This document shows positions 30,417-39,742 of a stretch of 64,000 nt of DNA, one piece after another (the stretch's first letter is position 1; every line of letters starts with the position of its first letter). A program made the position numbers and the translations under genes. Below the pieces are notes generated by a model. The model had not been told where the DNA came from. It saw only the letters and a program-made list of their open reading frames with translations, and did no database searches. The DNA lies in contig JAJONL010000020.1 of the NCBI GenBank assembly GCA_021323395.1, forward strand, positions 30,635 to 94,634, in the 5' to 3' direction. This DNA comes from Nitrospira sp. GTDB taxonomy: Bacteria; Nitrospirota; Nitrospiria; Nitrospirales; Nitrospiraceae.

Positions 30417-31493
30417 TCAGGCGGCGAGATTGCGCACAATGGCGTCGCCCATTTCGGTAGTGCCGACCAGCTTCATCCCTTCGGCATGGATGTCTTTGGT
30501 ACGAAGGCCCTGCTCAAGCGTTGTGACGATTGCCTGCTCGATCACTCTCGCTTCCTTTTCAAGCCCGAAGGCGTAGGACAGCATCATGGCAGCGGAAGCA
30601 ATGGTCGCAATTGGATTGGCGATGTTTTTTCCGGCGATGTCAGGCGCGCTGCCGTGAATCGGCTCGAAGAGCCCCACCTTGGCACCGATGCTGGCGGAGG
30701 GTAACATACCGATCGACCCGGTCAACATCGCGGCTTCGTCGCTGAGGATATCGCCAAAAATATTGTTGCAGAGCAAGACGTCGAATTGCCGAGGATTGCG
30801 CACCAGCTGCATCGCACAGTTATCGACATAAATGTGGCTCAACGCCACATCCGCATAGCCTTTCTGCACCTCTGTCACCACCCGTCGCCAGAGTTCAGAC
30901 GACTCCAGCACATTGGCCTTGTCCACCGAGGTGACTTTCTTCCGGCGCTTACGGGCCGCCTCAAAGGCCACGATAGCGATGCGGCGAATTTCCTCCGTCG
31001 TATACACTTCGGTGTTGAATCCACGTTCGCCGCCGCCGGACAATTTTTCGATTCCCTTGGGCTTGCCGAAGTAGATCCCTCCGGTCAACTCGCGGATCAC
31101 CAGCATATCGATTCCTTCGATGACCTCTCGGCGGAGCGTGGAGGCATCGGCGAGCATGGGATAGAGCTTTGCGGGGCGCAAATTGGCATAGAGCCCGAGT
31201 TGTTCCCGCAAACCGAGTAAGGCCCGCTCCGGTCGAAGGCTGTATTCCAAGCTCTCCCATTTGGGACCACCAACCGCTCCAAGCAGGACGGCGTCGCTTT
31301 GTTTCGCAATCGACAGCGTCTCCTGGGGCAACGGCACCCCGACTTTATCGATGGCATGGCCGCCGACATCGCCGGCAACAAATTCGAAGTGATGGCCCTG
31401 GCGCTCGGCTACCGTCTTCAAAACCTTCACGGCTTCCGGAACAATTTCACGGCCGACTCCATCACCGGCCAAGACTGCAATTCTCGCTTTCAC
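30417..31493 (-). CDS. leuB: 3-isopropylmalate dehydrogenase
   Basis: [57 protein letters not shown]. Confidence 0.96.
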
Positions 31494-31990: not shown

Positions 31991-33538
31991 TCAAATCAAG
32001 CTGACCTTCTGAATTCCCTCGGCCTGTTTCGAGGCGATATAGGCCAGCTTGTTGAGCGCATTCAGATAGGCGCGCGCCGACGCCGTAATGATATCCGTAT
32101 CAGCCCCATGGCCCGACACGGTTCGACCCTCTTCTTCCACCCGCACAGACACCTCGCCTTGTGCATCCGTGCCACCGGTGATGGCATTGACCCCGAACAT
32201 CAGCAGCTTGCTCTTCGTCTGAGTCATGGCGGCGATGGTTCGGTACACCGCGTCCACCGGCCCGTCACCTGTCCCGCTCTGCGTCACCGACTTGCCGTCG
32301 ATCTGCAACTCGACTGTAGCCTTGGGCACCATATTGGTCCCGCTTTCCACGTGAAACGACTTCAGAATCATCCGCTCCGACATTTTGGCAACTTCTTCGG
32401 ACACGATCACCTCGAGGTCTTCCTCGTAAATCTCTTTCTTTTGGTCCGCCAGCCGTTTGAACCGTTCAAACGCGTGGTTGACCTCTTCTTCTGTCAGCTT
32501 GTAGCCCAAGTCTTCCAGTCGTTGACGAAACGCGTGGCGTCCGGACAACTTACCCATCACCAGCTTGTTCTGCTCAAGGCCGATTGATTCCGGCCGCATG
32601 ATCTCGTACGTCGTCTTATCCTTGAGCAAACCGTCCTGGTGAATGCCCGACGTATGCGCGAACGCATTGGCGCCGACGATGGCCTTGTTCGGTTGGATGA
32701 CCATGCCGGTGATCTTGCTCACGAGGCGGCTGGTTTTGGAGATCTCTTCGGTCGCGACCTTGGTATCGGCCTCATACCAATCCTTGCGCGTTCGAAGACC
32801 CATCACGATCTCTTCGAGCGAGGTGTTCCCTGCCCGTTCACCGATACCATTGATCGTACATTCCACTTGGCCGGCCCCTGCCATCACCGCAGCGAGACTA
32901 TTGGCGACGGCCAGCCCCAAATCATTGTGACAATGGACCGAGATCACAGCTTGCCCGCTGTTCGACACCGTGTCCTTGATTCTCTTAATCAACCCACCGA
33001 ATTCCTGAGGATTGGCATAACCCACGGTGTCCGGAATATTGACGGTTCCCGCCCCTGCCGCGATGACCGCTTCAATCACCTCGCAGAGGTAGGCCGGATC
33101 AGACCGGCTGGCATCCATGGGAGAGAATTCGACATCCTCGACATAGGTGCGGGCCAATTGCACCATCTCTACAGCGCGCCGCTTCGCTTCTTCCCGCGTC
33201 ATGCGAAACTGATGCGTGAGGTGAATATCCGATGACGACAGAAAGGTATGGATGCGCACCTTTGGCGCGCCCTTCAATGCTTCATAGGCCCGCGTAATGT
33301 CCTCCGGCCTGGCCCGCGCAAGACTGCAGACCACCGGCCCCTCAACTTCCTGGGCGATTCGGCGCACCGCCTCGAAATCCCCCGGCGAACTGTAGGCGAA
33401 CCCGGCTTCAATGATATCCACGCCGAGGCGCGCTAGCTGCTTGGCGATCATGAGTTTCTCTTCGACGTTCATGCTAGCCCCCGGCGATTGCTCGCCATCC
33501 CGCAACGTCGTGTCGAATATTCTGATCATCCGAGTCAT
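31991..33538 (-). CDS. leuA: 2-isopropylmalate synthase
   Basis: [55 protein letters not shown]; internal start with RBS GAGGAGGT. Confidence 0.96.
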
Positions 33539-33565
33539 GGCATACCTCCTCTGTCCCGCAGGTTG

Positions 33566-33675
33566 CTCAAACAGGTTTTTCAACGCGGCCGCAGGCGGAG
33601 AAAACACCGGAGGCGTACCCTCTGGGGTACGTTGAGGATGTTTTCGAGCCGAGAACAAAGTTGGAAGCCTGTTTC
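33566..33675. repeat. Imperfect palindrome with about 55-bp arms (REP-like), core CGTACCCTCTGGGGTACG
   Basis: Left arm ctcaaacaggtttttcaacgcggccgc...gaaaacaccggaggcgtaccc aligns to reverse complement of right arm ctgaaacaggcttccaactttgttctc...gaaaacatcctcaacgtaccc. Confidence 0.8.
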
Positions 33676-33689
33676 AGCATGCTGCCAAT

Positions 33690-33726
33690 AAAAAAGCCTC
33701 CGCCCCGGAACAGGGACGAAGGCCTT
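33690..33726 (-). terminator. Regulated intrinsic terminator of the T-box leader
   Basis: 11-bp stem followed by six Us, mutually exclusive with antiterminator. Confidence 0.9.
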
Positions 33727-33947
33727 GCGAGCTTCGTGGTACCACCCTGGTTCAGCAACGGATGAAGGATTCCATCCGCCTGCCCTTCATTCCGTCCGTA
33801 ACGTGGACGATTCGGGACTTACTACTACCACGGAGGCTTCACAAGTCCAGCTCAGAGGCGAGTTCGGCTGCTAACCGGCTGGTTTGCACCATCCACCAGC
33901 TCTCTCAATTCGGTCAACCCTGCCTACTACTCCTCTTCACAGCTATT
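33690..33947 (-). ncRNA. T-box leader (tRNA-sensing riboswitch) upstream of leuA
   Basis: Minus strand: stem I AGAGAGCUGGUGGAUGGUGCAAACC, T-box AACCAGGGUGGUACCACGAAG, antiterminator AGGG[UGGUACC]ACGAAG/CUUCGUCCCU, terminator GCCUUCGUCCC-UGUUCC-GGGGCGGAGGC-UUUUUU. Confidence 0.92.
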
Positions 33948-33948
33948 C

Positions 33949-34734
33949 CTACTCTCTCGAATCCACCACCGGTGTGTTGGTTTTCGCAACCTGCTTGCCG
34001 GTGGTCTTAGTCAGCATCGTCCAGACACGCGAAGTCGGGCCGGACAGAGCATAACCTGCGAAAGTCACAAAGAGCATAGCCTGCGGCCAGGCGACAATCA
34101 ACATCAGGGCGAGAATGCCCCACACCAGATAGGTAAAATGATCGCCTCGTCGAAATTTCATGTCCTTGAAGCTTCGGTACTTGATCGTGCTCACCATTAA
34201 AAATGCGAGCGCGAAGGTGATCACTAAAATCAACAGCGGCTTGACTTCGGACCCCATCTGGGTGACGTGGAGATCGAATATCACCAATGACGCAATGACG
34301 CCAGCCGCCGCAGGAATAGCCAATCCCGTAAAATATTTGCTGTCGGACGTGGTCACCGTGGCATTGAAGCGAGCCAGCCGGACCGCTCCCATGGCGACAT
34401 AGGCGAACATGACCGCCACACCAAACATCCCCTGTCCGCTTAAGGCATAGGAATAGATGAGCACGCCCGGCGCGACACCGAACGACACCACATCGGAGAG
34501 AGAATCATATTCGATGCCGAATTGACCGGTACTGTTCGTGAGCCGGGCCAACTTCCCGTCTAACATATCGAAAATCATGCCGACCAGAATGGCGATGGCG
34601 GCGGCCAAATGCTGGCCATTGAATACCGACAGGATCGCGAACACTCCGCAAAACAAATTTCCGGTCGTACAGAGGTTGGGGATCAGGTACATCGCCTGTC
34701 GCTTTCGATTGCTTTTGGCGAATGAACTTCGCAT
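33949..34734 (-). CDS. pssA: CDP-diacylglycerol--serine O-phosphatidyltransferase
   Basis: DMLDGKLARLTNSTGQFGIEYDSLSDVVSFGVAP (CDP-alcohol phosphotransferase motif). Confidence 0.95.
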   Translation of the reverse strand: MRSSFAKSNRKRQAMYLIPNLCTTGNLFCGVFAILSVFNGQHLAAAIAILVGMIFDMLDGKLARLTNSTGQFGIEYDSLSDVVSFGVAPGVLIYSYALSGQGMFGVAVMFAYVAMGAVRLARFNATVTTSDSKYFTGLAIPAAAGVIASLVIFDLHVTQMGSEVKPLLILVITFALAFLMVSTIKYRSFKDMKFRRGDHFTYLVWGILALMLIVAWPQAMLFVTFAGYALSGPTSRVWTMLTKTTGKQVAKTNTPVVDSRE

Positions 34735-34745
34735 GGTCGACGATT

Positions 34746-35396
34746 TCATCGGAGTTCCCCCACGATAGTTTCTCCCCCCTTGACACGATCACCCACCGCT
34801 ACGCGAATTTTAGACCCCAGCGGAAGAAAGGTGTCCATGCGAGAGCCAAACCTGATCAATCCAAACCGTTCCCCCCGCTGCACGCGCTCCCCCTGCCCGA
34901 CCCAGCAGACGATCCGACGGGCAATCAACCCGGCAACTTGCACACAGAGCACTTTTGCTCCCGATACGGTCTTCAACATCACGGCATTTTGTTCGTTGCG
35001 CAGCGTCGCTTCAGGTTTACTTGCCACCAGAAATTGGCCTGGCTGATAACTGATCCCTTCTACCGTCCCGGCGCAGGGCATTCGATTCACATGCACATCA
35101 AATACGTTCAGAAAGACAGTCAACCGGATGCTTTTTTCCTTCAGGTACCGGGGCTCAAACTCTTCTTCGATGGCGATCACTTTGCCGTCACCCGATGACA
35201 CCACCACGTTGGGATCCTCCGGAATGGTCCGGCTGGGGTTCCTGAAAAACCAGGCCGTAAAGAGCGTGAAGCCACCCACCACCACGGCTGGAATGATCCA
35301 GCCCGATACCCCAAAGAGCAAGGCTGTCCCTGCGAGGCCGCCGACAAACGGCAACCCCTCCTTCACGATCGGGATTCCAACGGCTCGATCAGCCAT
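34746..35396 (-). CDS. psd: Phosphatidylserine decarboxylase, short form
   Basis: FFRNPSRTIPEDPNVVVSSGDGKV; NVFDVHVNRMPCAGTV; RFGSRMDTFLP. Confidence 0.94.
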   Translation of the reverse strand: MADRAVGIPIVKEGLPFVGGLAGTALLFGVSGWIIPAVVVGGFTLFTAWFFRNPSRTIPEDPNVVVSSGDGKVIAIEEEFEPRYLKEKSIRLTVFLNVFDVHVNRMPCAGTVEGISYQPGQFLVASKPEATLRNEQNAVMLKTVSGAKVLCVQVAGLIARRIVCWVGQGERVQRGERFGLIRFGSRMDTFLPLGSKIRVAVGDRVKGGETIVGELR

Positions 35397-35446: not shown

Positions 35447-36341
<895 letters not shown>

Positions 36342-39059: not shown

Positions 39060-39365
39060 ATGATTCCACTTCGCGTCACGATCGTCTCCCGCCATGATTG
39101 TCACCTCTGCCGGGTGGTCTATCGCGTCGCCGAGCAGCTGCAACAGGAACTCTCGTTCGACCTCGCAACGGTAGACGTTGACGGCGATCTAGGCACGGTG
39201 ACCCGTTACGGCAATCGCGTGCCGGTGGTCCTCATCGATGAGAAAGAAATTCTTTCCGGCAAGATCACCGGGGGAGCGCTACGCAAGGCGATTAAAAAAG
39301 CGCGTTGGAGAAACCCTATAAGCCGGATTCTGTCCCGCGTGAAACTTGCGCTCACGCGAGGGTGA
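39060..39365 (+). CDS. Glutaredoxin-like (DUF836-type) thioredoxin-fold protein
   Basis: VTIVSRHDCHLCRVVYRVAEQLQ...NRVPVVLIDEKEILSGKITGGALRKAI. Confidence 0.82.
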   Translation: MIPLRVTIVSRHDCHLCRVVYRVAEQLQQELSFDLATVDVDGDLGTVTRYGNRVPVVLIDEKEILSGKITGGALRKAIKKARWRNPISRILSRVKLALTRG

Positions 39366-39742
39366 TCATTTCTCTGGGACTCGAGTTACCTCGAGCCTCA
39401 AGCAACCTACCCGAGGACCTCGGCCGGGCCGGCCTTTCTGCCGGGCTCTTGCGAGCCGCGCAGGCGTCCCCCTATTTGGTCTTGCTCCGGACGACGCTTA
39501 CCGTGCCGTTGATGTCGCCATCACCGCGGTGGGCTCTTACCCCACCGTTTCACCCTTACCTGAGCCGGTGTCATGAACCAAAGTCCAACACACTGGCCAT
39601 CGGCGGTCTCTTCTCTGTGGTGCTGGTGTCGGATCGCTCCGCCTGGACGTTATCCAGCGTCCTTGCCCTTGGAGTCCGGACTTTCCTCCCATCGAGCGAA
39701 CTCGACGAGCGATCACCCGTGTCCCCCCAGCGCGCAGCGACA
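39316..39742 (-). ncRNA. rnpB: RNase P RNA (bacterial type A)
   Basis: Minus strand GGGAGGAAAGUCCGGACUCC; GGGUAAGAGCCCACCG; AGGUUGCUUGAGG; CCCAGAGAAAUGAUCACC; ACAGAAUCCGGCUUAU. Confidence 0.95.

Follow-up and report, generated by a model that had tools for sequence, protein, structure and literature searches.

A leucine-specific T-box leader upstream of leuA in Nitrospira and its apparent exchange for another sensor in a sister family

Gene context of the leader

The window, that is, the whole 64,000-nucleotide stretch of Nitrospira sp. DNA that was analysed, carries on one strand the genes ilvB, ilvN, ilvC, psd and pssA, downstream of which come leuA, a small ORF resembling a cupin, and leuB, and asd lies beyond them. 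The leader described here occupies the space between pssA and leuA, and the genes most directly concerned were identified by profile matches:

33949..34749, minus strand: pssA, the upstream gene, whose stop codon (TAG, 33951-33949) abuts the leader (TIGR00473, 128.8 bits, cut-off 107)
31991..33538, minus strand: leuA, 2-isopropylmalate synthase, the controlled gene, with ATG at 33538 (NCBIfam equivalogs above cut-off, including TIGR00973 at 735.8 bits)
30417..31493, minus strand: leuB, the downstream leucine gene (TIGR00169, 521 bits)

Judging from gene order, leuB is likely to share a transcript with leuA. A promoter scan, which sees sigma-70-like sites only, returned no match in 33500-34150; taken with the gene order, this is compatible with an internal valve within an ilv-psd-pssA-leuA transcript whose upstream genes would be co-transcribed. 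All branched-chain amino acids depend on ilvBNC, so a leucine switch placed after it and before leuA would control the leucine branch only.

Several other elements of the region were recorded. The interval from the T-box terminator to the leuA ribosome-binding site (33555-33685, minus strand) is occupied by a dispersed, near-palindromic repeat of about 130 bp with 43 matches in the genome, MITE- or REP-like, whose ends (GCAGCATGCTGAAACAGG / CCTGTTTGAGCAACCTGC) are inversely repeated; it folds at -51.9 kcal/mol (z -3.2), and most species of the genus retain it at the leuA site. The ilvC gene is broken (35447-36338, minus strand) into two ORFs in different frames that align to positions 2-78 and 127-336 of the 337-position profile, with about 50 residues missing and a frame shift that may reflect either a true loss or an assembly error; a search of the genome for a second copy of the downstream part of ilvC found none. 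An RNase P RNA of class A (286 bits) lies at 39303-39728 on the minus strand.

Anatomy and covariation of the leader

The initial annotation had described a complete T-box leader on leuA starting right after the pssA stop codon, and the sequences it quoted were all found on the minus strand at this site, with the pssA stop adjoining the leader as described. In cmscan the region 33709-33949 (minus strand) matches RF00230, the comparison that the annotation had proposed as a check, with 105.4 bits (E 3.1e-22), where the gathering score is 93, and the alignment runs end to end over model positions 1-219. A search of the whole 3.5 Mb genome with RF00230 located a single T-box, the one before leuA. 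The score lies just 12 bits above the cut-off and six members of the genus score slightly under it, so the T-box subfamily is divergent. The elements of the leader are, from 5' to 3':

33709..33949, minus strand: T-box leader, RF00230 (cmscan, whole model 1-219)
33849..33944, minus strand: Stem I, with AGCU/AGCU base, k-turn, specifier loop, and apical AGAGA plus GGUGGAUGGUGCAAACC (sequence, and covariation of helices 3-5 in 35 relatives)
33860..33862, minus strand: specifier codon CUC (Leu), within GAA-CUC-G (cmscan alignment and 50 leaders)
33815..33848, minus strand: Stem II, GGACUU...AAGUCC (helix 6), which houses the CUU of the initial annotation
33793..33809, minus strand: Stem IIA/B region, CGUCC-ACGUUAC-GGACG (helix 7)
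33759..33778, minus strand: Stem III, CGGAUG/CAUCCG (helix 8, covariation)
33711..33749, minus strand: antiterminator, CAGGG, UGGUACC bulge, ACGAAG ... CUUCGUCCCUG (fold and 35 relatives)
33738..33744, minus strand: T-box bulge UGGUACC, whose UGGU could pair with a tRNA 3' ACCA (GGGUGGUACC in every leader)
33690..33723, minus strand: intrinsic terminator, GCCUUCGUCCC/GGGGCGGAGGC plus U6, overlapping the 3' strand of the antiterminator (terminator scan match)

Within Stem I the elements follow the order AGCU/AGCU, k-turn, AGAGG/CCUCU, specifier loop, GGC/GCC, UGACCG/CGGUUA and GCUGG/CCAGC with AGAGA and the apical loop; the k-turn, the specifier loop and the AGAGA/apical loop were all recognized by sequence together with covariation in helices 1-5. 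Covariation was assessed on an alignment of 35 related leaders, with shuffles and slid partners as controls. In the terminator-state structure, 33 of the 51 pairs changed on both sides, compared with 18.5 +/- 2.0 for shuffled and 16-22 for slid versions, and 90% of cells were paired, compared with 36-51% when partners were slid, a measure that is biased toward the unslid version because the structure was derived from the window sequence, which makes the counts of two-sided changes the stronger evidence. The antiterminator-state structure presents two-sided changes in 34 of 51 pairs. Among individual elements, Stem II is paired in 96% of cells with compensatory changes in five of its six pairs, and helix 7 of the Stem IIA/B region, the pairing CGUCC/GGACG, shows two-sided changes in all five of its pairs.

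The antiterminator, folded over 33711-33752, reaches -13.0 kcal/mol and consists of CAGGG/CCCUG, the UGGUACC bulge and then ACGAAG/CUUCGU, as originally drawn, with 99.5-100% of helix cells paired in the 35 relatives. The terminator hairpin (33696-33723) reaches -21.8 kcal/mol (z -3.9), a stability equalled by none of 200 shuffles, and is paired in 97% of cells in the same relatives; when a longer piece was folded, the terminator was preferred. Because both folds use the strand CUUCGUCCCUG (overlap 33711-33723), they are mutually exclusive, and both are conserved in relatives, in agreement with the alternative folds that the initial annotation had drawn. The Rfam score, the exclusive folds, whose stabilities are suitable for such a switch, and the covariation concur on a complete T-box leader.

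Conservation, specificity and proposed mechanism

Exactly one T-box was identified in 28 of the 29 genomes of the genus, the exception being an incomplete assembly (89%, 410 contigs). Across a sample of the phylum, 94 of 296 genomes carry a T-box, one each: 79 belong to the window's family, four to two further families within the class and 11 to three more distant families, and none of the non-matching genomes listed by kinship comes from the window's family. A class-level search gave the same picture of the distribution. The leaders that were fetched, distant families included, all map upstream of leuA (50/50; for L008 the contig ends before leuA would appear), with the T-box sequence kept in every one and the antiterminator in the 35 aligned relatives, as would be expected from the annotation's proposal of a leader conserved at leuA.

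A decayed T-box, in which the structure survives but leuA is in practice driven from another site and the terminator does no more than end the ilv-psd-pssA transcript, is very improbable on these data. The lack of a nearby sigma-70-like promoter match has been counted in its favor, and a terminator can outlive its sensor, to judge from the sister family described below, which appears to have lost the sensor while a similar terminator stayed; the specifier, the T-box bulge and the antiterminator are nevertheless nearly invariant and the helices change in a compensatory manner, which argues for continuing selection on the switch.

The specifier, too, accords with a leucine T-box. CUC, a leucine codon with leuA downstream, sits on the 3' side of the specifier loop, and the Rfam alignment gives the same specifier position. 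GAACUC is found in 48 of the 50 leaders and GAACUG in the remaining two (L037 and L040), CUC and CUG both encoding leucine. An automatic call of CCA as the specifier of L049 proved to be a mis-placed pattern match, this leader reading GAACTCGCC at the right place. The initial annotation had tentatively proposed CUU as the specifier, and Stem II of the window does contain a CUU, but this codon lies in the base-paired, variable helix 6, whereas the GAA-CUC-R at 33862-33860 falls where the Rfam alignment has its specifier loop, at a position conserved in all leaders, so that a specificity set by CUU, or by any codon other than CUC, is scarcely credible. The genome encodes five tRNA-Leu genes, including tRNA-Leu(GAG), whose 3' end reads GGC-A-CCA (A73-CCA) and is complementary to the UGGU of the bulge; the pairing originally anticipated with a tRNA-Leu bearing discriminator A is thereby matched by an actual gene.

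By every testable feature the leader is a class I transcriptional T-box, for which tRNA binding and charging-dependent antitermination are predicted, and the Rfam score, covariation, conservation at leuA and matching tRNA-Leu(GAG) all back the transcriptional leucine T-box on leuA that had been proposed. We assign a probability of roughly 0.95 to a T-box riboswitch of class I that acts by transcriptional antitermination and has tRNA-Leu(GAG) as its specific ligand. From the sequence, structure, covariation, specifier, tRNA gene and context, we infer tRNA binding, termination and regulation in the cell along the following lines. RNA polymerase would pass from pssA into the leader; when leucine is scarce, the anticodon of uncharged tRNA-Leu(GAG) would pair with the CUC specifier and the tRNA elbow would dock on the apex of Stem I. 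Pairing between the ACCA end of the tRNA and the UGGU of the bulge would then hold the antiterminator, allowing transcription of leuA and probably leuB. The end of a charged tRNA would be unable to pair, and the more stable terminator would form and stop transcription before leuA. With the specifier and the cognate tRNA both in hand, regulation by this leucine T-box, which is present in single copy throughout a family of Gram-negative bacteria, becomes testable.

Sister-family leaders and known systems

A sister family of the same order (f2) presented no T-box in any of 30 genomes, even when laxer filters (E up to 0.1) were applied to detect weak T-boxes that strict filters might have overlooked. 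LeuA is present in f2, with 71-76% identity in complete matches, and in every case in which the frame upstream was read, leuA still comes after pssA. A maximum-likelihood tree groups the LeuA sequences of f2 in one clade (100/100), nested among those of T-box-bearing members of the window's family, so that loss of the T-box in f2 is the simplest reading. This clade adjoins L037 and L040 (support 94/91), the two leaders with a CUG specifier, which would call for tRNA-Leu(CAG).

In most of the f2 genera read, a terminator is still found at the site. It takes the form GCCUUCGUCCC...GGCUUUUUU in g15, g136 and most of g16, and GCCUUCACCUC...GAAGGC in g13 and g14, while none such was found in g17, g18, g137 and g138. 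When 21 genomes were scanned with a pattern spanning these forms, none had more than one match, and the seven matches in f2 were all situated just upstream of leuA, which disfavors a chance origin. Since CGUCCC is the strand that pairs with the T-box antiterminator, descent of the f2 terminator from the T-box terminator is plausible, if not proved. Five g16 leaders (L103, L109, L117, L118 and L119) contain GATCGGGTGCC...CCCGATC, an antiterminator-like pairing that overlaps a GCCTTC(G/C)TCCC terminator and carries no UGGN bulge; the pairing resembles a T-box antiterminator that has been eroded.

In g13 and g14, nine of 13 loci contain a 31-codon ORF whose start comes immediately after pssA and whose end precedes the terminator (for example, MRKLQGKGRATLLLCKNHLTLLGLLETSALI and MDQWQGKGRAPLLLGDATLTLASLLKIAVTP); of the other four loci, two retain the start but have an insertion, and in two the pattern is lost. 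The nine leaders, as distinct from that of the window, place a short, leucine-rich ORF before a terminator. The ORF encodes between 4 and 10 leucines, amounting to 67 of 279 residues overall (24%), and several leucine positions are conserved despite synonymous codon changes. For six of seven leaders the leucine count was reached in 0-2 of 2000 dinucleotide shuffles, and for the seventh in 58 of 2000. An alternative hairpin, ACCCCGA/UCGGGGU, could form in g13 as far as pairing potential goes, and would be a candidate for the antiterminator that a stalled ribosome releases in leader-peptide attenuation. Differences by codon position (363/285/402) show a weak bias, and a translated leader peptide is accordingly a likely rather than an established product of this ORF.

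The f2 pattern suggests that the sensor was replaced and the terminator retained. On balance, we lean modestly toward a scenario in which the ancestral leuA T-box was lost in f2 with the terminator kept, a leucine-codon leader peptide took control in two genera, and other genera were left without an attenuator. The absence of the T-box from f2 despite a preserved pssA-leuA arrangement, the similar terminator in most genera read and the leucine-rich ORF in two of them are new here, and this apparent exchange of sensors is the more interesting lead. The family would give a natural example of one RNA sensor being exchanged for another before a seemingly inherited terminator, and a part-way replacement is a seldom-seen step in attenuator evolution.

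T-boxes are ordinary in Gram-positive bacteria. The mechanism at the window's leader is likewise ordinary; the lineage is one in which T-boxes are little documented, and a literature search, covering mostly papers available without subscription, found no publication joining T-box, Nitrospira or Nitrospirota, and leuA. The class I T-box of ilvBNC-leu in Bacillus subtilis comprises the same elements as the leader described here (Stem I, specifier, Stem II, IIA/B, III, T-box and antiterminator/terminator). It governs the entire ilvBNC-leuABCD operon (PMC12452182), whereas within the row of genes in the window the T-box comes only after ilvB, ilvN, ilvC, psd and pssA, so that it would gate leuA onwards only. 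Its CUC specifier is the commonest among Leu T-boxes, being used by 74% of those known (PMC7778990). Outside the Firmicutes, leuA T-boxes have been reported in Geobacter and Pelobacter (PMC2494555; PMC3766115); the Gram-negative Geobacter sulfurreducens and Pelobacter carbinolicus likewise have a single T-box upstream of leuA (PMC2494555), in a different phylum from the window's organism. The f2 leaders resemble leuL-type leader-peptide attenuators in layout, in that a leucine-rich ORF precedes a terminator, the arrangement of classical attenuation. In Actinobacteria, by contrast, the leuA leader ORF accompanies a pseudoknot, the LEU element, and not a terminator (PMC1262725), the partner that it has in f2.
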